A stretch of DNA of 64,000 bases from Earliella scabrosa. Lineage: Eukaryota; Basidiomycota; Agaricomycetes; Polyporales; Polyporaceae. A model generated the notes under the pieces. That model was not told the DNA's origin. It worked only from the letters and a program-made list of their open reading frames with translations, and made no database searches. Position numbers and translations under genes: made by a program. The stretch spans positions 372,001 through 436,000 of the forward strand of contig JABYQQ010000028.1 of assembly GCA_022605405.1 (NCBI GenBank). Direction: 5' to 3'. Positions 17,394 to 52,563 of this stretch are shown one piece after another (position 1 is the first letter of the stretch; the number at the start of each line of letters is the position of its first letter).

Positions 17394-17879
17394 CACGACG
17401 GGCAGCGCCCCGTGTCTGGTACTTGTGATATAGGCAGGAAATCGGTGGGGGATCTATAATATCCTATTGTTGCCCGACTCTTGCCTCCCGACACGGATAT
17501 TTGAGCTGTCCAGCCTGTGACCTACCTATTTCCTGGGGTCGGGGCGGGGTGAAATGGTGCCAAAGCGGGGAAAAGGTGGGAAACAGATTGGCGAGGAAAG
17601 AGGACACGTGTTTTTGCCGATTCAGGAAATAGGAGCGCCAGTGGCGAAATTTGTTGTATACCCGTTCAATGTCCAATGTATTTCCTGTCTATCACTGCAT
17701 GCAAAGACACGTAAACTGGCTCGGCAAAGGGACACATAGGGTGGTCCCGGATGCCGATATTCCATGTGCAGTCGTCGTTTCCGAGACTAGGAAATAGGTG
17801 AGCCACATCCACAGGACATCTTTCATCGACCATTCATAGGAAAAACATAGGTTATGTAACACTGCGGCAAGCAGGAGCT

Positions 17880-18330
17880 CTCACCAGAGCTCCTGCGTAG
17901 CGCTCCCGCCAAGAGCTCAAAGCTCGCGCCAATGGGCTCTCGAGTCGCGCATCCGAGCTCTCGAGTCGCGCCAATGGGCTCTCCGGTCGCGCCCCCGAGC
18001 TCTCCGGTCGCGCCCCCGAGCTCTCCGGTCGCGCCCCCGAGCTCTCCGGTCGCGCCCCCGAGCTCTCAAGTCGCGCCCCCGAGCTCTCAAGTCGCGCCCC
18101 CGAGCTCTCAAGGTCGCGCCCCCGAGCTCCCAAGGTCGCGCTCCCGAGCTCTCAAGGTCGCGCTCCCGAGCTCTCAAGGTCGCGCTCCCGAGCTCTCAAG
18201 GTCGCGCTCCCTGTCTCCCAGATCGGGCTCCCCAAGCCTCCCAAGTCGCGCTCCTGGGCGCTCCCATCTCGCGCTCCCATCTCGCGCTCACCCAGGCTCC
18301 CATTTCGCGCTCCCGGAAGCTCCACAGCTC
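17880..18330 (+). repeat. 21-bp subterminal tandem repeats, left
   Basis: About twenty head-to-tail variants of GAGCTC followed by TCCGGTCGCGCCCCC, TCAAGTCGCGCCCCC or TCAAGGTCGCGCTCC. Each unit holds a SacI-like GAGCTC core and a GTCGCGC core. Subterminal repeats of this kind bind transposition proteins in CACTA elements, and that role is inferred here. Confidence 0.85.
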
Positions 18331-18707
18331 CGTCGCCGCTCAGCACATGGGCAATGCTCGCTATTCTCAGAGCGCATCTACATCACCGACAGCCTCCCGC
18401 TGACTCGAATACCAGCCTTCCACTCACACCGACGATCTCAGGTACCGACTCGCGACCTCCTTCCCTCCCCGACTCCGGCTACCGACCCCACCCGCGCAAT
18501 TGCGTTTCAGTCTCCACGACTCCCGACAACCTCAGCGACCGTCCCCCGCTCACTCGGAGCTCTGTCTCTCTTGTGCCGCCCTCGTGGGGCCTGCGCTGCT
18601 ATCACAGTGCGCCGGAGCTATGTCGCTCATATGCTGTCGTCATGCGCAAGCTGCTAGCTTCTCACCCTGTGTGAGCATAAAGGATGCGTGATGCTTTCGA
18701 CCTCGAC

Positions 18708-18998
18708 CGCTACCGACGACCTCGGCTACCGACCGCCAGCCGCGCAAGGTGCTTTCAACCTGAGCCTCCTCGGCTCCTGGCGACTCTCCGCTCACACGGG
18801 CACCGACTCCACCGGCACAAATGCGTTTCAACCTCCACGACTCGGACTCCCGACGACCCAGCGACAACCTCAGCGACTGTCCGCTGCCCGCTGACTCGGC
18901 TACCCACCCCCGCATACTCTCCCGCCAACGAGCTCCGTCGCTCCTGTTTGTGGCGTCGTGGGTCTGCGCTGCTCAGCGCTAGGGCGCAGTACCCCGGA
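18708..18998 (+). repeat. Internal duplication in left TIR, unit 1
   Basis: About 290 bp (ACCGACGACCTCGGCTACCG through CAGCGCTAGGGCGCAG) is repeated in direct orientation at 19340-19628 with moderate divergence. The same pair exists, mirrored, in the right TIR. Confidence 0.75.
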
Positions 18999-19339
18999 GC
19001 TCTGTCGCTCGTGTGCAGTAGCGAAGAGTGCATGCGCAGACCTCGCTCAGGCTCGCTCGCCTCCGAGGGGGCGGAGAGCGGACGCTCAGCACATGAGCGT
19101 TGAAACCTCCCGCAGCTGGACTCGACTAACGGCCTCCCACTCACACAGCTACCGACGATATCAACTATCGACGACCTCCGTCCCCTTTCGCTCACACGGC
19201 TATTCGTCAACCGCACAAGGCCATTCAACAGCCATGGCTGACGGCGCCTTTGTCTACCGACAACCTCGTTGACCGTCCGCTGCCCTCTCCGCTGACACGG
19301 CTGCCGCCTCCCGTTCACTGGGCTACCCACTGTCACCCC

Positions 19340-19628
19340 CCGTGGCTACCGACGACCTCGGCTACCGACCGCCACCCCGAAAGGTGCTTTCAACCTGTGC
19401 CGCCTCGGCTCCCGGCGACTCTCCGCTCACACGGGCACCGACTCCACCAGCACAAATATGTTTCAACCTCCACGACTCGGACTCCCGACGACCCAGCGAC
19501 AACCTCAGCGACTGTCCGCTGCCCGCTGACTCGGCTACCCACCCTCGCATACTCACTCTCCAACGAGCTCGCTCCATCGCTCCTGTGTTTGACGTCGTGG
19601 GTCTGCGCTGCTCAGCGCTAGGGCGCAG
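19340..19628 (+). repeat. Internal duplication in left TIR, unit 2
   Basis: Second copy of the unit at 18708-18998. The two units differ from each other far more than the two TIRs differ. The internal duplication is therefore older than the event that made the TIRs identical. Confidence 0.75.
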
Positions 19629-19883
19629 CTCTGTCGCTCGTGTGCAGTAGCGAAGAGTGCATGCGCTCTCCCTCCTCGAGGGCTAGCGGCTGCTTAGCAC
19701 ATTGGCGTCATTCCATCACTTCTATCATTTCCGCTAGTCGGTTTAGTTCATGTATGAGAGTCATGACTTATACATAGATGTAACGAGCTATACCGCACAT
19801 CGTATGTTACGCCGCTGTACAACGTGCTTGTCCGCCAAGCCATCCCCCCTGACACTGTATTTATCGAGTCCACCGCAACCAGC

Positions 19884-22687
19884 CTACTCCACATCCGCGT
19901 CGTCTTCCATGTCATCGTCTCCCTCTTCCTCGTCGTCCTCTAAGTCGCTCTCATGAAGGTCGTTCAAGTTCCCCGGTCTGGTGTACTTCGGCAGAGTGAA
20001 ATCATAGTCTTCGTCAATGATTTGCAGCTGTTCACGAACATGCTCCTTGAGCGACCGCAACCACCCGGGGTTGTAACAGTTCCTCCAGAGCCCGGTGGGT
20101 GCGGGCGAGTTGATGACACGAGGCTTGGCAAGCGCGATGCGGACGCGCGGCGTATTTCCACCCTGTAGCCTGTCGCCGACCTTCAGCTGCCAGTCCTCGA
20201 TGTGCCATTCGTCGAGCATGCGGACGAAGGCCTTGAACTCGTCGCTCTGCCACGCCGCCTCCACGATATGGTAAGACCTAGGATGCTGCTGACGGTCATC
20301 CTCGACGCCTTTCACGACCGCTTCGTCGCCGCTCATATGACGTCCGGCCAGCATGTCGAAGAGAATCTTGTGCCGAGCTAGTTCGTGCATATCAATAACC
20401 TTTTTGCGGATCTTGTAGGTCTGTAGGCCGGTGAGGATCGTCTTGGCTATATTGTGATATCGACCGGCTTACCGTGTTTCGCCGCGCACTAAACCGCTTA
20501 CGCAGGCGCACCTCCTTCTCGCGTTGCGCAGTCGCTTCCGTGTCAGGCTGACTGTGCCGTTTGTACTCGCTGCGCAGGTAGTCGATGTGGCTCTTCAACA
20601 CGCGGGCTAGCACCGTTCTCGTCAGAAGACGCGGAGGCACGGGAGGGTCGTTGTAGTCGCCACCACGGTGCAAGTCGATGAACCTATCAAGGATGAACGT
20701 CTCGGCCTCGCGATTGTAGGAGCAGGTTTTCCAGCCCCTTGTGAAGTCGATGGAGAAGTTCTCCAAGGTGAAGTAAGGACCATGATGACTCTCGTACGCC
20801 GCGAGCTGTGCGGCGGTGAGCGCGGGATGTTTGGCTGGCAATTGCTTCAGGTTCTTCAGCTTCAGTAGCTTGGTATCGACGAGGTCACGGAAGAAGGCCT
20901 GCAGAAGGTACGTCAGGAACTGTCTCGCGAGATTCGCTTCCAGCTGCACTCACAGCAAGAGCATTGATGTGGGGTTTATCGAGCTCCTTCTGCCGCTCGA
21001 TCTCTTCAGCAAGCCTGCGTGCGTTCTCCGCATCCTCGTCTTCTTCCGGGTCCCGTGGAGCACGCGTGGACGTGGGCTTACGAGGCTGATTACGGCTCGA
21101 GCGCTGTGGGGTTTTGCCCTTTGAACCATTGCCGGCGCGGCGGCGTCCCTCGGCCATCTCGGTTAGGAGGGTTCTATCCAGAGAGTCAGAATAACGCGGC
21201 AAGTGTATACATGCGCATAAGACGTACTCGATCCTCTCAAAGCGTTCATCCGTTCGGTGCGCAGCATCAAGTAGCATCACTCCGATGCTGTTAGGGCCCG
21301 AGGGAACGTGCTCGTGCATAGGTTGCATTGACGGGCCTTGCGTATACTTGCCTCCCTGTGAATTCAAGTGGTGAGTCCCCGTAATGAAATGATACGGAGA
21401 TGCAACATTACCTGCGACCCAGCATAGTTCGGAACTCTACTCTCCGCCGGCGGATTGTTCCTCGGAATCTGATCATCCTCCTTGAGATATCGTCAGCCAA
21501 TACAAGTACACGACGATGAAAAACAACACACCATTTCGTCGTCCGCATCTTCAACATATGGAGTGCGAGTGCGTTGTTGCCCACTTGCCGTTCCATGAGG
21601 TTGGCGCGCAGTCGTGGGAGGCGGAGCGGGCGCATGGCGCTTCGGAGGAGAGCTGGGGGAGGTAGAGGGTCTCTTGCGCGACTTCGTTGACGGCGTAGAC
21701 TGTAGGTGGTTAGACTAGGTCGAGCATGATATAACAATGAATACGTACTGCCTCGGGTTGATTAACATTCGTGCCATTGTGATCTGGAGTCTGGGAAGGG
21801 GCATAGAATCCAAGCAAACGACGTCGGTCGTCCTCAGGCAGCGCTTGCCAGACGGCCAATGCCTCAGCTTCCCCCTGCACAAGAGTCGATCAACATCCGT
21901 CATGCGCCAAAGATCGACAAGCACGCACCCCTTCGGCTTGGAAAGTAGCCACAAATGCAGCTGGGGGGAGCACTTCTGGTCGATCGGTAGCTGGCTGAGC
22001 CGACGTCGTTTGCGCGGAACGCTGAGGGTGCGAGTTCGTGGAAGAAGGTTCGTGAGGCCGTTTTGTTCGGGGCACTTGAGCATGCGTATTGTCTGCGTAT
22101 GGACGATTTTCGCCAGTATATGGGCCAGGATGCGGTCGGGCGGGCTGTGCAGGACCCTGAGTGTGTTGTGCGCCGCCTTGTGGTGTGAACGCGAACTGAC
22201 GAGGAGGAGCGGGCATAGGCACGTTGGCACCAGGTGGTGGACCGTACATCTGTGCTGGAGTGTAGGCGTATGAAGAGGGCATCCCTTGACCGTTATGACC
22301 CCGCCTCGGACTGGGAGCTCCCGGCGTAGGGAGATTCATGTAGTTCCAGTCAAATCGACCTTCCGACCTCTGACCTGGGAACGGCTCGCCTTGAGGCTGC
22401 ATCCTGCGGGGCGCGACGGAGTGCGGAGTGCGGCCGACACCTCCAGTAGGCCGTCCATATTCGAAATCGAACTGGGACTGCTGAGGGGGTAATGGGGTGG
22501 TTCGCCGAACGTACTGGGAGAAGTTTGGGTATTGTTCGTTCGCTGGTGGGGAGTAGGTGTCCTGCTGAGGGTATGTGCCATCTGACGGCATACGTGTGTC
22601 GAACTGGTAGCGTTCCGGATGATCCTGGGGAAGCATCGACGGTCCAGCCGTCGTCGGGTAGGGACCAGCAGGGTATCGCTGGTCCAT
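19884..22687 (-). CDS. Cargo protein 1: Pro-rich, unknown function
   Basis: Early exons join cleanly: 22687-21929, 21874-21749, 21699-21532, 21480-21412, 21355-21228 and 21173 to about 20960. Two further coding blocks follow at about 20943-20476 and 20430-19884. The first 250 residues are Pro/Gln/Tyr-rich and disordered. A short helical patch (EAEALAVWQALPEDDRRRLL) follows, then a basic linker (SRKRPSTSPSSPPKR) and a charged coiled-coil-like helix (ENARRLAEEIERQKELDK). The folded C-terminal half contains GPYFTLENFSIDFTRGWKTC and PPRLLTRTVLARVLKSHIDY, and the end is very acidic. I recognise no domain. The join near 20945 is unclear (only a 10-base gap fits), so a frameshift or unusual splice is possible. 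A 5'-leader intron appears to end at about 22693. Confidence 0.65.
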
Positions 22688-23076: not shown

Positions 23077-24139
23077 TCATTCATCACCGGGACCTCTCCC
23101 GTGGATACGTACCCGATGGATACAAGTGTGCGCATCTCCCCAGTTCTGCAGGATCTCCACGACATACAAGCCGAAGACGAGCTTCGAGTCCTGTATGTGT
23201 TGATAGACGGGAAACGTTTGTACGTGCTTCGAGGCCAATTGATACTCGAAATCTGCGAGCAGTAGGAAGGTGCGTCCTTGCATCACCGGTGGGCCTGCGT
23301 GTTGCAGAAGAGCAGGAGGGAAGAAGGGTTGCACAAGTTCGTACCGCTCGGTGTTTGCCTTCCCTTCCAGCATTCCCCATAACCGCACGCTCCTTGGTGC
23401 TCGCCCTCTCCTCTCCGCCTCCCAAGGGGGAATATGGTCAAGAGTGACGCTTGTAGGGTACGTGACGTACGGTAGTGATATGCCGACTTGACCTCGAGTG
23501 GAGGCGACCAACCAACACGGCCCGCCATGAGAGTTATCGCGAAGAATGACGCGGGCAGGGTGGTATGATGGCGTGGGGGGCGGGATAGAGTTGTTCGAAG
23601 TGAGCGAGGAGACTATCCGGGTGTCCCCCTCTTCTAACGCATGATCGCGTTGACCGATCTGCGCAAGGATCCCAGCCTCGATGGCCGCATCGATGTATTC
23701 ACGAAGGTACCGCGGGACGGTTTCTGGCGCAGTTGGCTGTAAGCGTGCGGGCGAAGACAACACCGACACAAGTTGGGTAGAGAAGTTCTTGAGGGACGAG
23801 AGATGGTGCGAGGTTGACATGAGTGACAAGACAAGGATGACGGACATGCACGCGGCCATGAACCACCTGTGCCATCCGGAGTAAGGCCGGGGTTGCGCGG
23901 GCTCTTCAGAAACTGCCGCGGCTGACTTGCGAGGGGTTGAACGGGAGGGCTGTGAGCTCTTGGAGCGAGGCAAGTCTTCAAAGCGTACGCGTTGTTTACG
24001 ACGTCCTGCGCCAGTCAACGCCAGTGTCTTATTCTTGACCGAGAAGGGACCTACCGTCAGGCTCAACGCCATCATCAAGGAACGCCCTTCCGTCGAAAGG
24101 ATTGGCAGGCTTCTCGCTCGGATCGGACTTGTTCACCAT
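23077..24139 (-). CDS. Cargo protein 2: SUN-domain nuclear-envelope-type membrane protein
   Basis: Two exons, 24139-24055 and 24005-23077, encode 337 residues. A soluble N-terminus carries a basic RRKQRVRF patch. One transmembrane helix (WFMAACMSVILVLSLM) lies at about residues 75-90, followed by a short stem. The C-terminal SUN domain is recognisable by eye: HGGPCWLVASTRGQVGISLP, YPTSVTLDHIPP, APRSVRLWGML, HVQTFPVYQ, FGLYVVEILQNWGD and the closing TCIHRVRIHG. SUN proteins sit in the inner nuclear membrane with the SUN domain in the perinuclear lumen, where they bind KASH peptides and link chromatin to the cytoskeleton. The gene is intact. Its presence inside a transposon is unexpected; tethering element DNA to the nuclear envelope is one speculative use. 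Confidence 0.85.
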
Positions 24140-24309
24140 TGCAAGCAGGGCGGACGGTGGCAGGTAGAGACAGAGGTGAGTTGGTGGCGTGGCAGACGGT
24201 TTTTCTGACGACAATAACGAGGATGATAGGTACATTATCGATCGAGTAAGAATATACATAAGGGGATTAATTATTCAGATAAGAAGTATACATGCCCCAC
24301 CACCGGACG

Positions 24310-25492
24310 TCCGATCGTAAGTGGGCTTCAAACTACCAGGGGTCAATGGACGGGAGTATCTCAATAAACACACTTGACTGCTCACCTCCCTTGGCCCTTG
24401 CCTTGCCCTTCTTGGCATCCAGTCGCTCCTTGTAGCCCAACTTGCGGTACCACTGGTGGGTGACCCAGTTGGGTTTCGGCAGTCCATTGTCGTCCTGACT
24501 GATAGCGAGCTTCCGCTCGTCCGCAGGACGCGTATCGCCCTTGTAAACAGACTTCCAAAAGGGCTGTCCCCCGGTTGTGGCCTCCATCCACTCCCACATC
24601 TGGGGCTCTTGGAGATGCGATGCGCAGTGGAAAAACAAGTCCCCAAGCTTCAACTCTGGATGCTTCGCCATGGCTGGCGGTGGGGCAGAGAGCGAATAGT
24701 TGCCGCTAGAGTAAAACCACGCCGTCTCGAACCTGACGTCGAGTCGTTTCTCCTCGTCCGTCGGCGAGCAGGTCTTCCAGTCTCGCTTATACTGGCGCTT
24801 GATGTCGTCGACGTCATCTTCGTACTAAGAATGATGCGGTCAGATATTGTCATGAGAAACAGAGAGGGAGGGCTTACAACATCTTTAGCCTTGGGCTTGG
24901 ACGCCGACGAGGTAGAGAGGACTGGCTCGACACGGAAGGTCGTCCGGATGGACGAACGCTTGACGGGTCGCTTAGAGCCCGGCTTACGTGCATATGGGCC
25001 TGGCTGCTGTGAAGTGCTGGGCCCAGGGGACGAGCGCGGCGGGGTTACTGGTTGCTGGAATGGCACATGGTCATGATCATTCGGCACGACGGGCGTGCTA
25101 GACCGTGACCGTGTTATAGTTGGAGGCGGCGGGACTTCGCTCGAGGAAGAACGTCGTCCATCGGAGTGAGACGAGGTTGCGGTGGACGAAGAGGCGGGGG
25201 GGGTAGACCGGAGACGCTGTCTGATTGAGACTCGGTTGGGGCAGCGGAGTCGTCCCATCGTCTGCCATCTTGATGTCGCATGGTAACCTAACCGTCGTGA
25301 GCACTTCAGGGCACAAGGAGACAACAGGGGTGCTCACTCATCGTGGAAGCAACGCGTGATGGTCATCTCCGCAGAATCCTCAAAGTTCGGGGCTACCGCC
25401 GCAGAGTATACGAGGTCAGTGACGTGGTTACGGCGGACCAGCGCGCGAGCGCCGAAGGTATAAGGGGTGGAGTTCGACGGCCGTTGCGCCAT
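24310..25492 (-). CDS. Cargo protein 3: unknown, with a frame break at a G8 run
   Basis: The start MAQRPSNSTPYTFGARALVR lies on an exon ending at a GTGAGC donor (about 25338). The next exon gives LPCDIKMADDGTTPLPQPSL. A Ser/Pro-rich basic segment follows (SSSSEVPPPPTITRSRS, RKPGSKRPVKRSSIRTTF), and then a charged exon with VDDIKRQYKRDWKTCSPT and LGDLFFHCASHLQEPQMW. The Ser/Pro segment is one base out of frame with the preceding part. The slip coincides with a run of eight G on the plus strand (about 25196-25203), so this is either a sequencing slip, a true mutation or a hidden intron. I recognise no domain. Gene reality is likely; the model is approximate. Confidence 0.55.
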
Positions 25493-25665: not shown

Positions 25666-28497
25666 CTACCCGCGCCGGCATTCGGCCAGCTTAGGCGTGA
25701 TAGCCTGCGACACCACTTTCACGACGTTCTCCAAGATCGCTCGGTAGGCGTCCTCGACGATGCTCGAATAGATACCACGGGATAGCCACCGATCTGGATG
25801 AAACCGCTTCTGTGCCTGAGAGACGAATCGCACGTACTCGGCGTGATCGAGACGTTTCTTCGCTTCCTCGAAGAAGTCTTCAACAGCCGCCCAATCGATG
25901 GACTCCGGCGTGAGTTGCGCGGGAGAGTCGAGGACTGGCCATGGAACGGAGAAGAAATCAAGCGGAGGCTGCCCCACGAACTTCGCAGAGTCGAACGACT
26001 CTGTAAGCTCGACGTATCGACGGAGCGCCTTCGAGTGACTCCAAAAGGAGAAGCGCCACGTCTTCCGCGTACGATCCCACCGCTGCTCACGTTCACGCCG
26101 TAGTTGGGCCTGGATAGCCTGGGCTTGAGCTGAAGCGGACGGAGAGGGCGCCCGGGGAGCAGCAGGTGTAGCCGCCTGACGTTGACTGTTCGCTGCAGCC
26201 GTCGCGCTTGCACGACGTTGCTCTTCCGCTTTCTCTTCCGCTACCCGTCGCCGAGCCTCCGCTTCCCATAGAGGACGGTCCTTCTCGAGCTCTGCCATTT
26301 TACGGCGCGATTCTTCGATTGCAGCTTGACGAGCTCGCTCTTCATCTTCAGGTGAGATCTGAGCGGAGGGTAGCGGTGGGAGGGGGCTGTTCGGCCTGCC
26401 CCTCATCACCGTTAAACGGCAAGATGTTCTCGGGGTGCGCGGGATTTTCGTCACCGTACGGCGGTTGACTCCCATCGTGCTCAGCAGTACGAGTGTGAAC
26501 GCCTTAGTGTTCAAACGCGTCAGATGTCAGTCGAAGGTCACAAGGGAATATCGAGACAGCTGACCAGGGTGTGGGTCCTCGGATAAGATGTCCTCCCACA
26601 ACTTCTCGGTGCGCTTTTGCCGCTGCTCTTCTCGGTCGTAGATCCTGCGATTGTATTGGTCCACCCGTCTCCGATAAGTACGCTCGTATGCACGCTCTTC
26701 GGCCTTTGTATACTTCGACGTTCTCCGGCGTTTCAGACTGGCTTCGGCGTCATCGGGATCCGTGTCTGCCTGGGCGTCGCCTGGCGAGGACCGAGTCTGA
26801 TCTCAGCTCAACGACATAGTAAGATGTCAAGCTTACCTCGCGACGAGGACTTCACCCCTGCACTGGCGCTCGCGTTCGGCGAAGTCGACGAACCGTCCTC
26901 ATCGTCCGTGTCCAGGATCAAGTCCATGATCTCCATCTCGCTCTCGTCATCTGGGTCTGTGATGTCGGGCATAGGGCTCTCGCAGCCCATCTCGACGTCT
27001 TCGTCACAGTCAGCACCATGAGCGTCAACAGAAGCGCCTACTTTGGCGGACTCCTGCTGATCAGGAACAGCGGGCTCCGTGAGGGGAGCCTTCAATGGGG
27101 GTTGCGCGCCAGCGGGCGTCGTCTCCGGCTTGAACCCTGCGTCGGGAGGCGCCTGCTCCTGAGAAGCAGGCATGGGGGGAGGAGCGGATGACCGAGAGTC
27201 ATGATCGGAACGCAGGGGAGGAGGCTGGAAGGCCGAATCTTCTGTGTCTGCAGCTGTTGACGAGACAGGCACGAAGTGAGACGGAGAAAGGTCAGGGGTG
27301 GTCAGATCTGAATGTTGGCTAGGGCATCCCTCTTCAGCCGCGGATGCACGGGGCACGGGTGGGTCCGGGATGGGAACTTGAGGCGAAGATTGGCGTGTAG
27401 TGGGGATCTTAGGCGATGGACCACGAGTAGTGGATTCATGAGCCGAATCGGAGGAGGAGGCCCCGGGAATCTGGTCATGGTGCCTTGGTTTATGGGCCTC
27501 GGGAGCGGTCGTGGCGGGAGCGGGCGTGGCAGGAGCGGTCGTGGCAGGAGCAGTCGTGGCAGGGGCGGTCGTAGCAGGAGCAGTCGCAGCAGGAGCGGGC
27601 TCGTGAGAGGTTGTCTTACCAGGACGGGCAGCAGGAGGTGAGTCGGTCGGGCCCATATTGCGACTAGACCATGACCCGGAGCACGCCTTCGTAGAGGATG
27701 CTTGGCTTGCGTTGGCCTTGTTACCAGGGCTGTCGCTAGCAAGACTAGCTTTCGCATCGGTTTTCATGGCTCCGTCTGCTGCATCGGTCGCCGAGCTGGG
27801 ATCTGGGCTGTTGGTGTCCATACGAGAGTGTGGGGCGGTGCGGTTGCCTGGCTCAAACCTGACTTTTTTCTTGCCACGATCGGACGGGGCGGGAGTGTGT
27901 GATGGGATCTCGGTGTGTGAATGAGGAGCGCTAGACGAACGCTCTGTGGTACTCTGGCGAGGTGCGGTGGTAGAGGAAGGTTGGCAAGTTGTAGTGGCAT
28001 GAGTGGAGGAAGGTGGGCGAGACCGATGTCCCAACTGTGGATTCCTGATTATGAAGGGGATTTCCGGTAATGCAGGTACGTAGCAGGCGTATGCCGGATC
28101 TAACTTGTAAATGTCCCACTGATCCTCGTAACATAGCACGATCTGGCTGGTCAGGGTAAGGACTCGTGCTGAACAGCGATGAGATGGCGACTCACCCGCA
28201 TAAAGACACCACTCGAGGCCAAGTACCCTCGGACGTCACTCCGGGTCCTAAATTGGCCGCAGGTACGAATCTCCATCGGTTGGGGGTAATGCGGTTAGGA
28301 ATCGTTTCAATTACTATGCGGTTGGACGGGAGTACGGAAGGCATGCGATGGGCATCGCCGTTAGAAGTCGTGTGGTCGAATGTTGCAAATTGGAGAGTCG
28401 CTAAAGGATGCGTAAGCACCCTGTCTGTCTGAGATGGGTCTAAGATTCCCGGCCGAGTGCCTCGAAGAAGAGCGAGGGATGGAGGCGAGGTAGACAT
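25666..28497 (-). CDS. Cargo protein 4: long disordered protein with C-terminal coiled coil
   Basis: Exons 28497-28196, 28146-26837 and 26780-26565 join in frame. A last block ends at the stop at 25666, with its acceptor (about 26375-26450) unresolved. The N-terminal 150 residues look folded (DQWDIYKLDPAYACYV, PEIPFIIRNPQLG). A long Pro/Ser/Thr-rich region with repeated PATTA units and a KKKVRFEP patch comes next, then an acidic stretch (DEDVEMGCESPMPDITDPDD). The C-terminus has a strong charged coiled coil (ERARQAAIEESRRKMAELEK), a conserved-looking FWSHSKALRRYVELTE segment and a QKRFHPDRW motif reminiscent of J-domain-adjacent sequences. I recall similar FHPDRW-ending hypothetical proteins as abundant in polypore genomes, which would fit a transposon-borne family; this is memory, not a search. 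Confidence 0.65.
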
Positions 28498-29045
28498 GGT
28501 ATTTCGAGTAGCTAGCCGTCATCGACTTGTACGACGAGAGTGGCGAAGACACGAGAGTAGATTCCATCGTGAGCGCACAAGGGGTCGCGTAGGCACAAAG
28601 GAGTGGGTGCAAGGAGCGAGCAACAGCGTGGTCCGCCACTCGTTCAAGTCGCGGTGCGAACCTCCGAGCGCTCCGTCGTGTGCATGCGCGCCTTCTGCCC
28701 TCCTCCCCTCCTCCCTCCCTCTCTCTTTCTCTCTCTCCCCCTCCCTCCCCCCCTCTCTCTCTCCCTCTCTCACTCACTCACTTTATCTCTCTCTTTCTCT
28801 CTCTCGCTCATCATGTATCTATCTACTAGGCAGAACTGGTTTTTGCCAGTGCTGCTGAACTTCGTTCTCCACATACGCCTCAGGCCTATCAGCCTCATTG
28901 CGACTGTTAGCTGGATTTGATAAGATCTCCACGATGCCAATGCCACACGCTACCCTTTCCTTTGTGCTCATGCAGCTTTAAGCACCAAGCTCGAACAGAC
29001 CTCCTTCAGCAAATCTTGCCTCTTCGACGGACACTCGCCCCAGCC
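28498..29045. promoter_or_regulatory. Divergent promoter with pyrimidine tract
   Basis: It lies between the starts of cargo genes 4 (minus) and 5 (plus). From about 28691 to 28805 the plus strand is almost pure C/T (CTCCCT and CTCTCT units). Such tracts are common in fungal promoters and may exclude nucleosomes. Confidence 0.55.
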
Positions 29046-29586
29046 ATGCCATCTTCCACTCGACTGATGCTCCTCTCGAGCATTCTCGTTGCTGCGACGT
29101 ACTACGTCGCGTATGTTGCCGTTCTCGCCATGTGGGATAGGTTCGAGGAACAGTTCAGCGCTGTCACGACAGTCGGGCGCGCGCACGGCGTTGCGCATGC
29201 GCAGGATGCATACGCCAACACCACTGTCTCCTTCATCAGTCTTCCCATGTCCAGCGAAGGTGAGCCTCCATACCATATGCTCCATCGTCCTTCCCCAACG
29301 TCCCTTCCTAGCCTATGTGTGCATGGCGTCCAACGTAGATGACGTCCTCTCCACGCTACTCGTCCCCGCCCCAGCGCTCGCTTTGTTCCTTGAGCTGGTG
29401 AGTTTGAACTCCACCATCTTCGCAACTCAGCATCAGACCATATGTTAGGGTGACCTCCACCTCAACATGTGCGACTTCCCAGGCACAATGGCTGTTACGT
29501 TCACCGACGGTGCTGACCTCAAGATGTTTGCCGCGTTGTTGGAGGGTGCCATGACTGTCAAGTACCAACCTCGCCGTGGGCTTTAG
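29046..29586 (+). CDS. Cargo protein 5: small membrane-anchored protein, unknown
   Basis: Exon 1 begins at 29046 with MPSSTRLMLLSSILVAATYY, a signal anchor. It continues through DRFEEQFSAVTTVGRAHG to a GTGAGC donor at about 29261. The final exon (about 29449-29586) encodes GDLHLNMCDFPGTMAVTFTD and ADLKMFAALLEGAMTVKYQP before the stop. A middle exon ending in LFLEL just before 29399 connects them, with an uncertain acceptor. The product would be about 120-140 residues with one N-terminal TM and a small lumenal or extracellular domain. No family is recognised. Confidence 0.5.
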
Positions 29587-29757
29587 TCCCGGTCAGTCTG
29601 AGTCCTTGACAAGTTGTGAACGTGTCCGATCTGGTCGTTACTTCGTGAAGAGGAGAGTGGACGTGCTGGACGTGGTGTGATGATTGTACATGTATCGAGA
29701 ATTCCGAATCTAGTGCGCGGCGCGCCTGCTTACTCCTGCCTTGGACTTGCATGACCT

Positions 29758-39575: not shown

Positions 39576-42500
39576 ATGCCCATCTGTAAATGCGACTCAT
39601 GTCGCTCGTGGACGTACAAGGGTGTCGATGGTCGACGTCGTCCCGGACGCAAACTGGAAGCACCCGACGCTGCTGCCCACAAGTACGCTGCACGGATGAA
39701 ACGCAAACTTGAGCGGGCGCATACGCTGCACGACGACGGTGGGGCTGTAAGCGACCATGGCGACTACGAGGTGGATGAGGAAGTCGAAGGAAATGCTGCG
39801 GACAATACTGAAGGCGGGGTCGACCGCGACGTCAACGATGGGCATGATGACGCCAACGCCGAGGACACTGACGAAGAGGCAGACACCGAGCAGAATAGGG
39901 CACGCAGGGCAAGACAGAATGCCATCTTTCTCGCTGCATTCGGCGACGGAGCCCCGGAGAGGGAAGTACCTATGCGCAACCGCGACTTCATTGCGACTCT
40001 CCAGGAGGTGCGTATACGCAGCGTTCTGGTATAATCTTCATGGCTTAACTCTCGATGAATCAGGTCCCCAATCACGGGGCTTCTGATGACATGCCGGACA
40101 CATCCGATGGCGAGATCATTGCCGACGACGACGACGACTCCGACGACGATATTGAACCCATCTCGTTGAAGGTGTGTTCGACTCTTGTTTGGGTCCATTC
40201 ACGTTGATGACTCATCGTGTGCAGTTGGAGAGAATCATGCAGCGGAGAAGGGAGCTTGCGAGCTTGGAGTCATCGCTCACTTTGCGATCGAGGCTGGTCA
40301 GTCCTTATATCAAACTCAAATTCCAGTCTTCCCCGACGTCCCCCAACGATCGCCCATCCAAGCTTGACACCACCTCTCACAACTGCGCCGAGTTCGACTC
40401 ACACCGCATGTGGATCTCTGGGGCCCTTGAGCGACTGGAGGCTATGTCCAATGTTGGTGATGACATCGCCGATCGTCACCTCGCGGTCATGTTAAGGGAC
40501 TATCGGGGGGAGCTGAAGCGGTTGAATCGACTTGAGGAAAGAGCATGGCAGAAGGAGATCGTCGCGGCCAGGGTATCGCAGATGGACCTTCCAGGGTCGG
40601 AAATCGCCGCGGTACCGGCAGGTATGTGTCCAATATCCCGGAGTATGAGCAGCTGATGTGAACACTACTACAGCTACGGTATACAACGCAAATTCGCCCG
40701 AGGTCATCCCGTTCATCCTTGCCGCCCTTTTCTTGGTTACGATACTCCATACACTCGCAGGTGTCTCGAGACCCTACACTCGCCTCATCTTGGCCACTTT
40801 CAGAGTTGCGTTGTTCGGCGCGATGACTTGGCAGAACCCCCTCGTCCAGTCAGTGTTATCAGCATCCCAGGAGGCCCTACTCCGCCGGATACCCGTCGAT
40901 ATTCGGACAGCCCTATCCGCCCTTCATCTTGAGCCCCCGCTTACGATCTACGCGGCCTGTCCTGCGTGTTTCGCGACATATGCACCCAATCCTTCGTGCG
41001 AAGAGGACCCCTATCCCCATACATGCTCCCACATGCTGACGCGCAAACGCGTCTGCGGGAGTCCTCTCGTCTACGCGCAGAAGCGATCCCCCAAGAAGAA
41101 CACTGCCCAGCGCACGACATTTCGGCCCATCTTGCCATTTCCTTACTTTTCCATCAAATCTTACATCGCTACCCTCCTCATGCGTGTCGGTGTCGAGGAT
41201 CTCTTGGAGCCCTCTTGGGATATGCCTAACGGGGCTGATGGCACCACCTGGAAGGACATCATGCACTCGCCTGCTATCCGTGACCTCATAGGACCCGACG
41301 GGAAGACTCCTTTCTCAATCCAGGCGGATGGATCGCTACACTTGGTCTTCAGCCTCTTTGTTGACTGGTTCAATCCGCATACGAACAAGAGGGGTGGGAA
41401 GCATCATTCTGTGGGTGGTATCTACATGGTATGTCTGAACCTCCCTCCCCACCTGCGTTTCCGCCCGGAATACATGTACCTTGTTGGAGTCATCCCCGGT
41501 CCCAGGGAACCCAGTGTCACCGAGATAAACCACCTACTACGTCCTCTCGTCGATGAGCTCGTCGAGCTATGGCATCAAGGCGTTCTCGTACAGCGAACGG
41601 CAAAGCGACGATCCGGGAGGCTTGTCCGGGCAGCTGTAATCCCTCTCGTCTGCGATCTTCCCGCCCTTCGGAAGGTTGCCGGCTTTGGTTCATACAGCTC
41701 GAAGCACTTCTGTTCTTTTTGTCCGATCACGTTGGACGACATGTCCAACGCGGAGCGTTCAACCTGGCCCGCGAGGATAACCTGGGAAGAGCATCTTCGG
41801 ATTGCAAGAGCCTGGAGGGACGCCGAAACCCTGGCTGAGAAGGACAGAATCTTCAAGGCGCATGGAATACGCTGGTCGGAGCTCCTCCGGCTCGAGTATT
41901 GGGACCCCACGAAGTACGCCGTTGTTGACGCCATGCATAATCTCTTCCTTGGAGAGCTGCGTCATCACTGCATGGATGTCTGGAATCTCGCTGAGATCAA
42001 GGTACCCTCCCCTGCCGCCAAAGACGCCCTATCCCATTCCCCCGAAGAACAGAAGCAGCACCTCGAGCGCGTCCTGACGTACCTGAAGAAGGGATCGACC
42101 AAATCGCTGGAACGCGTTCGCAAGGACTACCTGATCGCGGTCGCCATGTACAACAAAGTCCCACTCCCAGACGAAGAACCTACGCGCGCGCAGGTTGCTG
42201 CTGCACTCGTTGCTTGGGTACAGCTTTGCGAATTAGACTCATTGCTTCCACGGGACTGATCGTCTTCTTAGGCTGCCCCAATGGCTGACCTCGACTCCAC
42301 CGTCCGTCTTCCGCCACCTCTTGCCGAGTCGACCAATCATTTCCACTTGGTTGTCGAGCCGTCTGGAGACACGGAGGAGGAGGACCCCACCGCAGAGTAT
42401 CGCGTCTTCACGGGCGTCGTACTCAAGCAGGTTCAGGAGGACATAGCCAACGCATTTGTCCCGACATGGGTCGAGAAGCCTCCGGCAAACTTCGGTGAGG

Positions 42501-43686
42501 CCAGTCACGGCAGTCTGAAGGCGGACCAGTGGAGAACAGTCTGCACAATCTATCTTGTGATGACCCTGGTGCGGCTCTGGGGCTCTGCAGGTGCCACAAA
42601 CGAGCAACGCGCGGCGCTCCAGAACTTTGTTCACCTCGTCATCGCCGTCGATGCCGCGACCCGCCGATCCATGAGCGAAGATAGAGCCGATCTCTATGAC
42701 CGACACATGGAGCTCTACGTGAAAGGTCTTAGGGAGCTCTACGATCACGACCTCGTACCAAACCACCACATGTCCCTGCATATGAAGATATGTCTCCTCC
42801 TGTTTGGACCGGTGCACGGATGGTGGGCGTTCCCGTTTGAGCGCTTCAACGGTCTCTTGCAACGCCTCAACACCAATCACAAGCCGCGTATGAACCCTGT
42901 CACCTTCTCTCTATCCTCGAACTGACTTGAAGTTGTGCAGATCAAATAGCCGTTACGTTCATTCGGTACTTCTACATGGGCTCTAATCTCCGATGGCTGG
43001 TCAGCTCGGTGCAGTGGCCGAACCTGCACGTGTATGATGACTGGATGCAAGCTTTCCGAAGCGCATTCAAGGACGCTACCAAAGGAACACGATACACGGA
43101 CATCCTGTCATTCCTCGCTGAGCCAACAAAATCCTTCGAGTATTCTCAGCGGCTCGAGACTGCCTTACCTCGGCCGCTCTACGACCAACTAGTCTCTCTA
43201 CTTTCCACTGGCGGGCGATGTCCGATATTCCAATCCGCCTTCACCCATACGACCCGCGGAATCCCGATTCTTCCGACGCATGCACAGTTCGTCAACAGAG
43301 TCACGCAAGGCAACGTACATTTTGCCACGTCTCGCTCCCTGCGTCGCAACTCGCACATCATCTTCAGGGACCCGGTGACCTCTGTCACGGCCGCAGGTTC
43401 CATCGACAGTATCTTCTACCATCGCCGAAAGGAAGGCGGCAAGCTGCTCCTCGAACCCTTCATCGCCGTGCGCGAGTACAAACCTCTCTCCAACGACGAT
43501 CAGTTCCACGATCCTTTCCTCGCGTTCCCGGATCTTGATGCCAGACTATACTACAACAGCTTCAAGCCGGGGTTGCGCGTTATCAGGGTTTCCGACATTG
43601 TCTCCCACTTCGCCGCCCTCATTTACACTCCAGTGGGTGTGGACACGTCGTGTATCGTTGTGAAGGGGCTCGACAGGGTGCGTTAG
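39576..43686 (+). CDS. Plavaka-type transposase (CACTA/tnp2-like)
   Basis: Six exons (39576-40007, 40064-40171, 40225-40621, 40674-42217, 42272-42887, 42941-43686) sum to 3,843 nt, giving 1,280 residues with no frameshift. The N-terminus has a Cys cluster (MPICKCDSC) and basic RRRPGRKLEAPD, then acidic and coiled-coil segments. The core holds CPACFATYAPNPSC, FPYFSIKSYIATLLM, QADGSLHLVFSLFVDWFNPH, YLVGVIPGPREPSVTEINHL, VIPLVCDLPALRKVAGF, SSKHFCSFCPITLDDM and VVDAMHNLFLGELRHHC, and later GPVHGWWAFPFERFNGLLQR. These are the conserved stretches of Plavaka/tnp2 transposases; acidic residues in QADGS, CDLPA and VVDAMHNLFLGE are candidate catalytic positions. Intactness and near-identical TIRs imply recent activity. 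The ORF is central, unlike in simple CACTA elements. Confidence 0.9.
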
Positions 43687-44227
43687 ATGTTGCGACTGCT
43701 CGAGATCACTTCGTTGACGCTTCCGTCTACAGAGTTGATCAGCCGTTATGTTACACTCGGTGTTGGTCGTGTGTGTATGAGTGCGCATCCTTGTGTGAGC
43801 AAGTTTCGTGCTGGCCTCCTTATAGTTCCTCCGAGTTGCCGTTACTGAGATCGTCGCTCAATACTACATTCATTATTCGCGCGGAGGAAGTACATGTTGC
43901 GAACTGGGACTGCCGCCGCAAAGTTGAAGGGGGCGAAGAGCTCCCTACACTCCCCGGGGATACATCAGGTACCGTTTTGCCTCAATCACACAAGCGAGTT
44001 AGCACAAAGCCAGAGGGCCTCTACGTACGGCACCCCGAGAACATACTCGAACAAGCAACGACGGACTCAGAGCGTGGCTACTCGAACTGCCCAGCTGCGT
44101 CGATGTCGGCATGAGAGGCGGATGGACACAGCAGCTTGCATTGTCTCCGAATCTCCTTTGTCCGGACCCTCGCCATATCAACAGAGCTCCATGAACCCCC
44201 TCCCTCCACCTCTGACCTGCGACAACC
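43687..44227. other. Non-coding gap after the transposase
   Basis: Holds the transposase 3' end and the presumed promoter of cargo gene 13. No gene is supported. Confidence 0.4.
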
Positions 44228-44985
44228 ATGTCTGCGACAGAAGCTCCCATTCATTCGTACGTTTGACTCTTCGCTCGCGTCCACCCGTACATTGACTCGT
44301 CGCGGAGGGTAGGTGGTCTGATATCCCAGAGGTGACGTTCAGCGCGCATGCCTCATACACCTGCGCCGTTTCCGGTTGGACCGTCGCCCACATCGCTGTC
44401 GTAGAGGTTGCGCCTGAGAAGTGTAAGCATCATAGCAGGTGTCAACGATCATATGCAAACTGACGGTATGGTCCCCACAGTTGGTCTCCTCATATGTGAC
44501 GTACTCGAGTCCGGATGTGCCCCTAGTCCAATCACGGCGCAAGTTGGCATTGTCTTGAATGAGAACGTGATCATGTATACCGCGCCAGACGCTAACATCG
44601 TCCTGTTACGCGTGAACAAGGTTAGTCATTTAATCTCAGACTGACCAGGAGTAACCGACACTCATCGACCACGCAGTCTGCTTCCCTTGTCACTCTCCTC
44701 CCTCAGAGCACGACCTCTCGATTCCTCAAGGTACGTTTCAACCAGCGTTCGGACTACCTGGGATGCGTCAAGGCTATCAACGACGCTCAAATCGCGACGG
44801 AGGATCAACACGAGGAGATGAAGGCCGCTCTTCGACGCGCTCTGGCGACGGCGGTGCCCCGCCAAGCCTCAGAGACGCAGTCGCAGGAGACGAGCCCAGG
44901 CGAGAGTGCTGCGCATGTTGCAGGTGTTGCTGTGACGACCGGCGAAGAGGAGGGCCCACAGGTCGGGTTGCCGTCGATCGAATAG
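44228..44985 (+). CDS. Cargo protein 13: small protein, probable paralogue of cargo protein 7
   Basis: Four exons (44228-44256, 44313-44422, 44481-44620, 44677-44985) encode 195 residues. Strand-like segments EVTFSAHASYTCAVSGWTVA, HIAVVEVAP, FGLLICDVLESGCAPSP, AQVGIVLNENVIMYTAP and NIVLLRVNK precede TSRFLKVRFNQRSDYLGCVK, a charged helix (ATEDQHEEMKAALRRALATA) and a disordered acidic tail. Exon organisation and intron phases (2, 1, 0) equal those of cargo protein 7, and LLICDVLESG aligns with LFVCELLDGS. An apparent GTACGT donor after FLK is probably not used because the frame stays open. It lies directly downstream of the transposase on the same strand, so a role with it is possible but unproven. 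Confidence 0.7.
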
Positions 44986-45176: not shown

Positions 45177-46420
<1,244 letters not shown>

Positions 46421-47431: not shown

Positions 47432-49917
47432 ATGTCCCCGCCTAAGAAACCACGTACGCTGGAACACGTCTTCGTATGCGAGGCGCCCCGACCGAGTTTC
47501 AGATGGCGCGCTATACACGAAGACATCCAGGCTGAGGTATGCCACCCACCGCTAGCGCGCATCATTGGCGACCTCCATGCTAACATACATGATAGATATA
47601 CATCTATCTTAGTCCTAAGGATCTGTTGAATCTATCGCGCATCGACAGAGAAACGTACAACCATCTCAAGAGTCCTGACGCGAACCTCTACTGGCGTCGA
47701 GCTCGTCGAAACGTCCCCGGACTTCCTGACTGTCCTGAATGGCTCACAGAGATGGAGTTCGCCGCGTTATGCTTTGAGGAGCACTGTCAGAAGTGTCTCG
47801 TCACGGACGACACAAGCAGACAGCCAATGTGGCAATTATACGTTCGCTACTGTGCTCAGTGCGAGCTGGCCGAGTGAGTCGTTGTACTGCCTGAGGCTCG
47901 ACCGTCGTTGCTCATCATCGATGTCGCCTGTCAAGAACGACCTCGATCCACCCCTTGCATAATCTTGGCACCGGTTTGCGTAAGAGCTTGTATGCAGACT
48001 TAGTTCCTTCTGTCCGCCGAGAACGTGTTACAGGTAAGTCCCATACTTCTGATGAGATCAACATGCTGAACGTTTTTAGAAGATGGCGAGTCGACTGCTA
48101 TCAACCTCAGTCGTCTCACAGATGTCACAAATTTTCGCAACGCCCTCAGCTGCGCCTCAAAATCTGAACGCGACGCCGTCATTCAACAGTGGCGCGCCTC
48201 GACGATGCGACGATGCAATGTAGGGCTATTCGTGAAATTCGGCTATCGCGTGCTCATGCGTCTCTCCAGCATGCCGAGCAGTGTCATATGTGGAAGATGG
48301 TTGCTGACGAGGCCGAACGTGAACGCGTGGAGGAAGTCCGATTGAAGCGGTACAATGAGTGAGTACTTCCGCATCCTGATCCGGTGCCCACATCTGATCG
48401 TGATAACAGAATACATGGCCGGCTTGTTGCCCTTGGATATAGCTCAGAGTTGATTCACCTGGGTATCCGACTGCAGGGACTCTCCGCAAGCGCGTACGCA
48501 TTCTTCAGGAAAGCGCAACCTCTTGAGGACGAGGGTAAGCATGTCGCGCACATGACGGCTTTGGCACCATATGCTCATGGGCTCGACTACATAGAATGGA
48601 CGGAATATCTTCCCGATTTGAGGGATTTTCTTGACGGTCGACGAATGCTGGAGACTCGTCAATCCCGAGTCAAAGTCATGCTCTTGCGTCTCTGGATGAT
48701 CGAATCCACTCTGGAAGCTCGCCTCGCAGAACTTGGGTCAGGTGAAGATAGCCCTTTGCCATGCGCGCTTGACCTCGTTGAGCTGCCTGTCGTCGCCCAT
48801 CTGGTGCAGCTACATGAAGCGGTCATCATCCCTACCGTCGCTTACACAGCTACGATCGACTCATACATCTACGAGTGGAGGCAAGCAAGAGAAGCCTCAC
48901 TGCTCGCCCTGTTGTATAGTGGCAGAACCTCGGCTCCCGTCCGTTCCCATCCCACAGGTCTTCATGACTTGCTGGCCTCCCCTACCTCGCTTTTCTGGTG
49001 TACACAATGCGAACAGCTGGTCCGAGGCACTCAAGCCGTCACGCACAAGTGTTGCTATGGCTTCGATCAAAACTGGCGCTATATCAATCCCGACTGCTCG
49101 CCATGGATCGACGGAACCTACGCACCGCTGATTAGCGATGGCGGACCGCTCTTCGAGCGCACCTGCGTAGTGCACGCCCAGGGCGTCACACCATGGTCTC
49201 CCTCATCACTGCGTCCCTGTGCTGACTTGGTTCGCGCGGTCTGCCAAGCATTCAGTATGAATCCGACCGTCGTCGATGCTCGCGACCCTAAGCTGGAAGA
49301 TGGTCGCGTCGCATGCCGCGCATGCAGTCAGATGAATCAAGGCATGGTTGTTATGGGATGGCGACGTGCGGTAAGCCTGGATATTAGTGGAATGTGGGAC
49401 GTTCGCACTGTCTGACCGAGCATCTTCCAGGTACAGCACATGGTAGAAGCTCACAACAACGAGCACGTCGAGTGGTCGGAAGTTTGTTCTGAGGTGGCGC
49501 ACAAGGTTAAGCAAGTGGAGAACACATCGCGAGAGGCCACGGCCCATGCGACGAGGTCGTGTGCACGATGGACATGTATCCGCTGTACATGGCCACAATC
49601 TCGGGCTGCGTACACCCTCGAAGAACTTCAAGAACATTTTGTGGACAGGTATGTCGTTTTGATTCTTGTATTCCAGACCTATGTTGACTGAGCGCGCCGT
49701 TCGCAGTCACCCTTTGGTCGTGCTACACACCAAGTGGTACCGCCGCTCGGGTGACTCTCCGGAGTTCATGCATCCTCCTGTTATCATCCATGACACAGAA
49801 CTGGACGACGATGCCGTGGATGATTTTGTTGGGCTAACCTCTGTGATGGATGATGCCTTGGTGACGTCGATGCAGTTCCCCACAGACGCGTGGAGGGGGT
49901 GGTTGGGTAGGTCATGA
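47432..49917 (+). CDS. Cargo protein 14: F-box protein with C-terminal zinc-finger-like motif
   Basis: Exon 1 is 47432-47536 (MSPPKKPRTLEHVFVCEAPR). Exon 2 from 47596 holds the F-box, IYIYLSPKDLLNLSRIDRET, followed by the basidiomycete signature RRNVPGLPDCPEWLTEMEFA with ALCFEEHCQKC. Middle exons give VTNFRNALSCASKSERDAVI, IREIRLSRAHASLQHAEQCH and a long exon from about 48411 with ELIHLGIRLQGLSASAYAFF and LFWCTQCEQLVRGTQAV. Near the end WTCIRCTWPQ and LQEHFVDSHP form a C2-H2-like finger. F-box proteins recruit targets to SCF ubiquitin ligases. The joins after 47873 and near 48190 (QQ to ARLDDAT) are not resolved and could include a one-base shift. Family identity is good; whether it is fully functional is uncertain. 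Confidence 0.72.
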
Positions 49918-50258
49918 GGTTCGGATATATTGTACAATTACGTGTATGACTTGTTCTATGCACACCACGGAGGAAAGGTGTCGGTCATGCTCTAGCACAG
50001 TGTCTTGACCATATAAAGTACGAATCGTGCCACGGATCTGCCATTTGCGTTCGTCCGTTGAACAGATCCAACATAGTCAATGACTGTACACATCGTGCTG
50101 ATATTCTTTGTGCCACGAACTTCCGTATGTAGATATGGCGTCGGTGAAGACGCTGAGAGCTGCAACCCCCACCGCGTGGCTACCCCCCTCAGCTTGATGA
50201 CCTCTGTTTGAGTTAGCAGGGATGGAATGATCCAGAAAAGGGAGGGCATAGTCACTGC
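49918..50258. other. Gap between last cargo gene and right TIR
   Basis: Non-coding; nothing recognised beyond the presumed terminator of the F-box gene. Confidence 0.4.
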
Positions 50259-52563
50259 GCTAAGCAGCCGCTAGCCCTCGAGGAGGGAGAGCGCATGCAC
50301 TCTTCGCTACTGCACACGAGCGACAGAGCTGCGCCCTAGCGCTGAGCAGCGCAGACCCACGACGTCAAACACAGGAGCGATGGAGCGAGCTCGTTGGAGA
50401 GTGAGTATGCGAGGGTGGGTAGCCGAGTCAGCGGGCAGCGGACAGTCGCTGAGGTTGTCGCTGGGTCGTCGGGAGTCCGAGTCGTGGAGGTTGAAACATG
50501 TTTGTGCTGGTGGAGTCGGTGCCCGTGTGAGCGGAGAGTCGCCGGGAGCCGAGGCGGCACAGGTTGAAAGCACCTTTCGGGGTGGCGGTCGGTAGCCGAG
50601 GTCGTCGGTAGCCACGGGGGGTGACAGTGGGTAGCCCAGTGAACGGGAGGCGGCAGCCGTGTCAGCGGAGAGGGCAGCGGACGGTCAACGAGGTTGTCGG
50701 TAGACAAAGGCGCCGTCAGCCATGGCTGTTGAATGGCCTTGTGCGGTTGACGAATAGCCGTGTGAGCGAAAGGGGACGGAGGTCGTCGATAGTTGATATC
50801 GTCGGTAGCTGTGTGAGTGGGAGGCCGTTAGTCGAGTCCAGCTGCGGGAGGTTTCAACGCTCATGTGCTGAGCGTCCGCTCTCCGCCCCCTCGGAGGCGA
50901 GCGAGCCTGAGCGAGGTCTGCGCATGCACTCTTCGCTACTGCACACGAGCGACAGAGCTCCGGGGTACTGCGCCCTAGCGCTGAGCAGCGCAGACCCACG
51001 ACGCCACAAACAGGAGCGACGGAGCTCGTTGGCGGGAGAGTATGCGGGGGTGGGTAGCCGAGTCAGCGGGCAGCGGACAGTCGCTGAGGTTGTCGCTGGG
51101 TCGTCGGGAGTCCGAGTCGTGGAGGTTGAAACGCATTTGTGCCGGTGGAGTCGGTGCCCGTGTGAGCGGAGAGTCGCCAGGAGCCGAGGAGGCTCAGGTT
51201 GAAAGCACCTTGCGCGGCTGGCGGTCGGTAGCCGAGGTCGTCGGTAGCGGTCGAGGTCGAAAGCATCACGCATCCTTTATGCTCACACAGGGTGAGAAGC
51301 TAGCAGCTTGCGCATGACGACAGCATATGAGCGACATAGCTCCGGCGCACTGTGATAGCAGCGCAGGCCCCACGAGGGCGGCACAAGAGAGACAGAGCTC
51401 CGAGTGAGCGGGGGACGGTCGCTGAGGTTGTCGGGAGTCGTGGAGACTGAAACGCAATTGCGCGGGTGGGGTCGGTAGCCGGAGTCGGGGAGGGAAGGAG
51501 GTCGCGAGTCGGTACCTGAGATCGTCGGTGTGAGTGGAAGGCTGGTATTCGAGTCAGCGGGAGGCTGTCGGTGATGTAGATGCGCTCTGAGAATAGCGAG
51601 CATTGCCCATGTGCTGAGCGGCGACGGAGCTGTGGAGCTTCCGGGAGCGCGAAATGGGAGCCTGGGTGAGCGCGAGATGGGAGCGCGAGATGGGAGCGCC
51701 CAGGAGCGCGACTTGGGAGGCTTGGGGAGCCCGATCTGGGAGACAGGGAGCGCGACCTTGAGAGCTCGGGAGCGCGACCTTGAGAGCTCGGGAGCGCGAC
51801 CTTGAGAGCTCGGGAGCGCGACCTTGGGAGCTCGGGGGCGCGACCTTGAGAGCTCGGGGGCGCGACTTGAGAGCTCGGGGGCGCGACTTGAGAGCTCGGG
51901 GGCGCGACCGGAGAGCTCGGGGGCGCGACCGGAGAGCTCGGGGGCGCGACCGGAGAGCTCGGGGGCGCGACCGGAGAGCCCATTGGCGCGACTCGAGAGC
52001 TCGGATGCGCGACTCGAGAGCCCATTGGCGCGAGCTTTGAGCTCTTGGCGGGAGCGCTACGCAGGAGCTCTGGTGAGAGCTCCTGCTTGCCGCAGTGTTA
52101 CATAACCTATGTTTTTCCTATGAATGGTCGATGAAAGATGTCCTGTGGATGTGGCTCACCTATTTCCTAGTCTCGGAAACGACGACTGCACATGGAATAT
52201 CGGCATCCGGGACCACCCTATGTGTCCCTTTGCCGAGCCAGTTTACGTGTCTTTGCATGCAGTGATAGACAGGAAATACATTGGACATTGAACGGGTATA
52301 CAACAAATTTCGCCACTGGCGCTCCTATTTCCTGAATCGGCAAAAACACGTGTCCTCTTTCCTCGCCAATCTGTTTCCCACCTTTTCCCCGCTTTGGCAC
52401 CATTTCACCCCGCCCCGACCCCAGGAAATAGGTAGGTCACAGGCTGGACAGCTCAAATATCCGTGTCGGGAGGCAAGAGTCGGGCAACAATAGGATATTA
52501 TAGATCCCCCACCGATTTCCTGCCTATATCACAAGTACCAGACACGGGGCGCTGCCCGTCGTG
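50259..52563 (-). repeat. Right terminal inverted repeat (2,305 bp)
   Basis: Exact mirror of 17394-19698 with one noticed mismatch (50500). It contains the mirrored internal duplications at about 50329-50617 and 50959-51249. It ends GCCCGTCGTG, followed by TCT outside the element. Confidence 0.95.
51627..52077 (-). repeat. 21-bp subterminal tandem repeats, right
   Basis: Mirror image of the GAGCTC/GTCGCGC tandem array of the left TIR, with the same unit order. Both ends of the element therefore present identical arrays facing inwards, as expected for transposase-binding arrays. Confidence 0.85.

Follow-up and report, generated by a model that had tools for sequence, protein, structure and literature searches.

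The stretch analysed here, a window of 64,000 nucleotides from Earliella scabrosa contig JABYQQ010000028.1 (C28:372001-436000), contains at window positions 17394-52563 an element of about 35 kb, E28, which we compared with the rest of the genome (51.7 Mb, 48 contigs). An initial annotation, made from the letters of the window, had described this block as a single mobile Plavaka/CACTA-type unit with about 13 cargo genes, and its coordinates proved exact to the base. The boundary features, in window positions, are:

17391..17393, no strand: left TCT target copy, single at the empty site C2:1837470-1837494
17394..19704, + strand: left inverted arm, 2311 bp, starting with CACGACGGGCA (arm alignment)
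17913..18251, + strand: subterminal tandem array of a 21/42-bp unit, inward-facing
50253..52563, - strand: right inverted arm, 2311 bp (arm alignment)
51706..52044, - strand: mirror-image subterminal array within the right arm, inward-facing
52564..52566, no strand: right TCT target copy (arm/flank comparison)

The two arms, described initially as long inverted ends starting with CAC, are reverse complements of each other with 3 mismatches, and the element begins with CACGACGGGCA at left and ends with TGCCCGTCGTG at right. TCT is present on both sides as a 3-bp target duplication, and the inward-facing subterminal repeats were found in both arms, all as the initial annotation had read them.

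Relatives of E28 were sought by DNA search with its first 207 bases and by a terminus pattern search (25 matches, versus 7 for a reversed control). Blocks with the same terminal inverted repeat, which the initial annotation had suggested as the comparison to make, were found as four more giant elements, each bounded by an inverted pair of the same 11-bp terminus:

C1:126782-164688, 37.9 kb: E1
C6:1794224-1843754, 49.5 kb: E6
C3:2559175-2640313, 81.1 kb: E3
C33:152035-236291, 84.3 kb: E33

The terminus CACGACGGGCA is present in 5 of 5 giants including E28, with CAC...GTG ends and matching 3-bp duplications in each case (TCT, CGC, TTG, ATA and AGA), and a transposase lies inside all five. The arms of E1 are identical over ~1.6 kb, those of E6 are identical over 244 bp and then continue in a 97% stretch displaced on one side, and mismatches number 8 in ~1 kb for E3 and 22 in 665 bp for E33. 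The exact 11-mer had 144 genome matches, versus 51 for a control. Among the first 100 of these matches listed, copies at C11:95283(+) and C11:149561-149571(-) delimit a candidate sixth element, C11:95283-149571 (54.3 kb), inferred from positions only, which encloses matches to the transposase, SUN and WD40 proteins and to the proteins called g1 and g3 below. Moreover, seven miniature copies of 546 bp (one of 552) carry the terminus of the giants, are ~96-100% alike and have perfect 3-bp duplications in 7 of 7 cases. Terminal repeats around unrelated DNA that lacks a transposase, named initially as an outcome that would speak against the proposal, thus occur in the miniatures but not in the giants. 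Transposase-less miniature derivatives are usual for CACTA elements. The motif GGAAAT occurs 5-9 times within the first 520 bp in eight giant arms, compared with 0.15 per 520 bp in the interior of E28, and its count in the miniature element is 2. Inverted terminus pairs were also seen, among the matches listed, 185 bp apart (C1:992001-992185, C1:1078125-1078309, C13:670113-670297 and C14:606684-606868) and 292 bp apart (C7:2364170-2364461 and C11:1031520-1031811); judged by position only, these are probably further miniature families moved by an E28-type transposase.

Empty sites were searched for in the same genome with the 300 + 300 bp flanks of each of the five giants joined with one target copy. 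The joined flanks of E28 matched C2:1837466-1837784 at 98% over 319 bp, with only 19 bp to the left of the junction, and the left flank of E28 further out is repetitive. An exact 25-mer across the empty junction is present at C2:1837470, and hence the empty site predicted initially was found, as a paralogous site. E1 has an empty site at C1:175188-175783 at 95% (~600 bp) and a second one at C1:71401-72000 at 77%, and related sites were found for E3 (84%) and E6 (70%), in total for 4 of the 5 giants; the joined flanks of E33 gave no related empty site in this own-genome search. Chance is excluded, because four other elements share the terminus and a matching 3-bp duplication, and because an empty target exists. 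The arms, the TCT pair and the empty site bear out a single mobile unit of 35 kb, and at the level of sequence the mobility of E28 is well supported. Two paralogous stretches in direct orientation, 77-83% alike, flank E28 (window 13403-16315 and 53963-56121), and the left one encodes a Jacalin plus Exo_endo_phos2 protein.

The transposase of E28 is the following gene:

39576..43686, + strand: tnp2-type transposase, six exons, 1280 amino acids (aa), PF02992, without internal stop

Its match to PF02992 (Transposase_21) has an E value of 1.2e-17 and 64.3 bits (cut-off 28.6), in agreement with the earlier description of an intact DDE-superfamily enzyme rather than a tyrosine recombinase. The 1280-aa frame presumes splicing of a 54-nt intron at 42218-42271, which E1 and E6 have in the corresponding position, and the stop at 42257-42259 is only apparent, being inside this intron. 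An alignment of the transposases shows conserved D and CxxC residues. The Plavaka part of the initial label had to be given up, as none of the 126 genome matches listed for PF18759 (Plavaka) falls in the window and this family was absent among the Pfam hits of the E28 transposase exon at E up to 1; one decayed PF18759 copy lies inside E33. Plavaka elements, as described in the accessible part of one source, belong to the CMCT clade of Agaricomycotina, with a transposase related to EnSpm, 2-3-bp duplications and reported ends TGT..ACA or CATCA..TGATG (PMC12730594). The E28 family resembles them, to that extent, in its short target duplications and related transposase clade, and differs in its CACGACG ends and the lack of PF18759 in the window. 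The tnp2 transposase, CAC...GTG ends and 3-bp duplications together make it CACTA/EnSpm-like, and on these features we assign the family to the CACTA/EnSpm (CMC) type and not to Plavaka. Because Plavaka and EnSpm are related, according to the same accessible text, the change of label is a correction within one clade (PMC12730594).

Enclosed with the transposase are the following genes of E28, modelled by a homology-guided prediction script trained on the elements themselves:

19884..22687, - strand: g1, no Pfam match; two models here, a single gene of ~850 aa in E6 and E33
23077..24204, - strand: SUN-domain protein, one hydrophobic segment and then a C-terminal SUN domain (PF07738, hydropathy)
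24374..25492, - strand: g3, conserved, no Pfam match (element comparison)
25666..28497, - strand: g4, long disordered protein, no Pfam match; two models here, one gene (890-965 aa including stop) in E1 and E6
28684..29586, + strand: g5, small protein with one hydrophobic segment; start probably near 29043, dN/dS (ratio of nonsynonymous to synonymous substitution rates) up to 0.45
29757..31542, - strand: WD40 protein (Pfam); two models here, one in E1 and E6
31825..32415, + strand: g7, ~146 aa, no Pfam match (element comparison)
33084..33729, - strand: g8, ~154 aa, no Pfam match (element comparison)
34213..35276, - strand: g9, C-terminal hydrophobic segment only in the E28 model
36173..37294, + strand: g10, ~338 aa, earlier the 'LRR-like' (leucine-rich-repeat-like) gene, no Pfam match (element comparison)
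37416..39390, + strand: g11, tail-anchored, short conserved C-terminal tail YPxWxxTR[L/V], found at six loci
44191..44985, + strand: g13, ~196 aa, no Pfam match (element comparison)
45184..46409, - strand: flavin oxidoreductase fragment (PF00724), low-scoring model, seen in no compared element other than E28
47432..49917, + strand: F-box-like protein with a Cys/His-rich C-terminal part; two models in E28 and E6, one 696-aa gene in E1

The SUN protein matches PF07738 at 6.9e-19, and its copy in E1 matches SUN1/SUN2 chains of the PDB at ~1e-10. Hence, of the gene identities proposed initially, SUN and WD40 stand, the F-box is a weak match (E 0.0018, short of the curated cut-off), and the LRR-like identity has no Pfam support. 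For the remaining companions, Pfam gave nothing convincing in the E28 proteins that were scanned, and searches of NCBIfam (four window frames) and Rfam (window) gave no informative result. A C-terminal hydrophobic segment is present in the WD40 protein of E28 and E1 and is not reached in that of E6. The PF00724 fragment is probably a degraded captured gene.

The 13 companions and the transposase are common to E28, E1 and E6. The 13 genes read initially as cargo do not correspond to the cargo of Starships: the same set recurs in the other elements and, for the five genes searched genome-wide, in distant relatives too. E1 is collinear with E28 in reverse, and protein identities among the elements are ~38-81%, gene by gene. 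In E33, of which 60 of 84 kb were read, the left gene block is shared, and the transposase and g11 were located by search. As far as sequence comparison can tell, the gene set is an inherited core that was kept together across strongly diverged elements. Within E6, the block from g1 to g9 (about 11.6-26.4 kb in element coordinates) runs in the opposite orientation to that of E28 and E1. E33 has a second, diverged SUN gene (C33:179829-180500) and a g3-like frame in neighbouring frames, which seem to be what is left of a nested relative.

Association of the companions with the transposase was measured by own-genome searches with five proteins, with adjacent rows merged by eye or script. We obtained 36 loci for the transposase, 25 for SUN, 26 for g1, 20 for g3 and 39 for WD40. 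A transposase locus is found within 100 kb of 24 of 25 SUN, 25 of 26 g1 and 20 of 20 g3 loci, although no more than 14% of the genome is that close to one, and all five tested genes were found together in 13 of 50 clusters (45-kb links). A pure cargo reading was rejected, because the companions recur across elements and SUN, g1 and g3 are tied to transposases. At the transposase locus C28:493676, SUN is in range only owing to E28, 98 kb away. The sole SUN locus distant from related transposases, C12:1197994-1198515 in a 614-aa frame, is probably the host's own gene. Twin clusters with the same scores and near-equal spacing were seen at C1:1419374-1438217 and C22:88514-107357, at C39:119442-138177 and C43:12127-30864, and at C2:1501884-1506782 and C11:1642537-1647434; these reflect either recent transposition or haplotypes that the assembly contains in duplicate. 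At C14:706599-768374, a single transposase locus is accompanied by a pair each of SUN, g3 and WD40 loci, which corresponds to two adjacent or nested elements.

We conclude that E28 very probably belongs to a family of giant autonomous CACTA-type transposons that move by cut-and-paste and have an inherited multi-gene core, including SUN and tail-anchored proteins; the part of this reading that concerns a transposon with an inherited core is held a little more firmly still. Several points weigh against it. The empty sites are paralogous sites and not alleles, and the evidence comes from one genome assembly. The gene models are our own predictions from sequence alone, and the catalytic triad is not confirmed because the AlphaFold models, with predicted local distance difference test scores of only 39.8 (g1) and 33.5 (transposase exon), were unusable. 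The dN/dS values that speak for constraint on the shared genes, 0.045-0.449 in 32 of 41 comparisons (the remaining 9 having infinite dS), are rough, because dS is saturated (all above 1.1). Moreover, 8 of 36 transposase loci have neither SUN nor g1 inside 100 kb, and only 26 of 39 WD40 loci are near a transposase, an association that is weaker because WD40 genes of the host are picked up as well. There are near-identical pairs among the clusters, for example C1:1.42M with C22 and C39 with C43, and these are not independent.

Four other explanations were weighed. In a composite block, ordinary CACTA ends would by chance have come to lie around host genes, and the cargo would be passively moved. 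Passenger-like pieces are present, namely the flavin oxidoreductase fragment of E28, a Dus fragment in E33 and, to date in E6 alone, a frame of 671 aa that matches no Pfam family, but recognisable host-derived pieces are few. Because E1 and E6 have the 13 companions too, and SUN, g1 and g3 lie almost exclusively near related transposases, we regard a composite as improbable. An immobile host gene cluster or a segmental duplication with a palindromic border would suit the position of E1 amid tandem paralogues and the paralogous stretches on both sides of E28, but would not be expected to leave 3-bp duplications in all five giants and all seven miniatures or an exact empty-site junction, and is very unlikely. 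An endogenous virus or Maverick-like element is just as unlikely: the large size, the many genes and the long inverted repeats of the mobile unit would be in line with it, but no match to a polymerase (PolB), capsid, ATPase or integrase was obtained among the E28 proteins scanned with Pfam, and g1 had no relative in the IMG/VR collection. A Starship-like giant element driven by a tyrosine recombinase can practically be dismissed, since, despite the size and gene number of E28, the report of Starships from a basidiomycete in the accessible part of PMC13066641 and a PF00589 frame in E1 (0.0013, under the cut-off), no recombinase domain was found among the E28 proteins scanned with Pfam, the frame in E1 is best read, together with the RNase-H-like sequence next to it, as a nested DIRS-like element, and E28 contains a tnp2 transposase between long inverted arms.

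For the CACTA-type family with an inherited core, we propose that the transposase would bind the 11-bp ends and the spaced subterminal GGAAAT motifs, excise the whole block of 35-84 kb and re-insert it elsewhere, and that the miniature elements would be mobilised by the transposase of the giants. The companions are under constraint and are therefore probably useful to the element; the 13 genes may be retained because they aid its persistence. The F-box-like companion would probably act on protein turnover, and the SUN protein, the tail-anchored g11 and the WD40 protein probably at the nuclear envelope, although we put this envelope role forward only tentatively and consider it doubtful. The SUN protein, with its hydrophobic segment and C-terminal SUN domain, resembles that of the linker of nucleoskeleton and cytoskeleton (LINC) complex, and g11 is a candidate for its tail-anchored partner. 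A hydropathy scan placed a C-terminal hydrophobic segment in g11 of E28, E1 and E6, and the g11 tail aligns to the last residue at 4 of 5 other loci and is one residue short at the fifth. These features suggest, as a hypothesis, that SUN and g11 form a LINC-like pair. However, the hydropathy scan flags the transposase and g10 as well and is therefore not specific. KASH peptides, which bind SUN in the perinuclear space, end in PPPX in animals, and g11, the putative partner, has no such ending; the SUN protein here is, moreover, encoded by a transposon. It is rather unlikely, but conceivable, that a giant-CACTA superfamily carries a LINC-like kit (SUN and a KASH-like tail-anchored partner, with F-box/WD40 helpers) that predates the divergence of its members and serves to position nuclei or tether the element and in this way to bias how the element is transmitted, for instance where, as in some fungi, a cell has two kinds of nucleus.

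The E28 family shares with CACTA/EnSpm elements the tnp2 transposase (PF02992), CAC...GTG ends, 3-bp duplications, subterminal repeats and miniature derivatives, but its giants are 35-84 kb long with ~14 genes. Starships have a tyrosine-recombinase captain and variable cargo; E28 is likewise a giant multi-gene mobile unit in a fungus, but its family has a tnp2 transposase and a conserved core. Among the CACTA families named in the available part of PMC6431247, the largest are those of Chondrus, at 16-20 kb and 4-5 open reading frames. For Amoebidium, the accessible text describes 'Plavaka giant repeats', gene blocks of up to 50 kb with a CMC-clade transposase, in tandem clusters with intron-poor genes and many tyrosine recombinases (PMC11244446). 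E28 is similar in that a large gene block is tied to a CMC-clade transposase, and differs from what is described there in that its set is intron-bearing and has SUN, WD40 and F-box-like genes. Precedents exist in these two systems, as far as the available texts go, and no paper on an element of the E28 type was found in the open PubMed Central (PMC) literature, a coverage outside which subscription journals and most preprints fall.

Units of such size and complexity in fungi are usually linked to Starships. The present family indicates that units of 35-84 kb with an inherited gene set can also go together with a CACTA-type DDE-superfamily enzyme. Caution is needed in such genomes, as clusters of 'hypothetical proteins' with SUN or WD40 genes may be transposon genes. 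If the companions do act at the nuclear envelope, these transposons would exploit the nuclear-positioning machinery of the cell.

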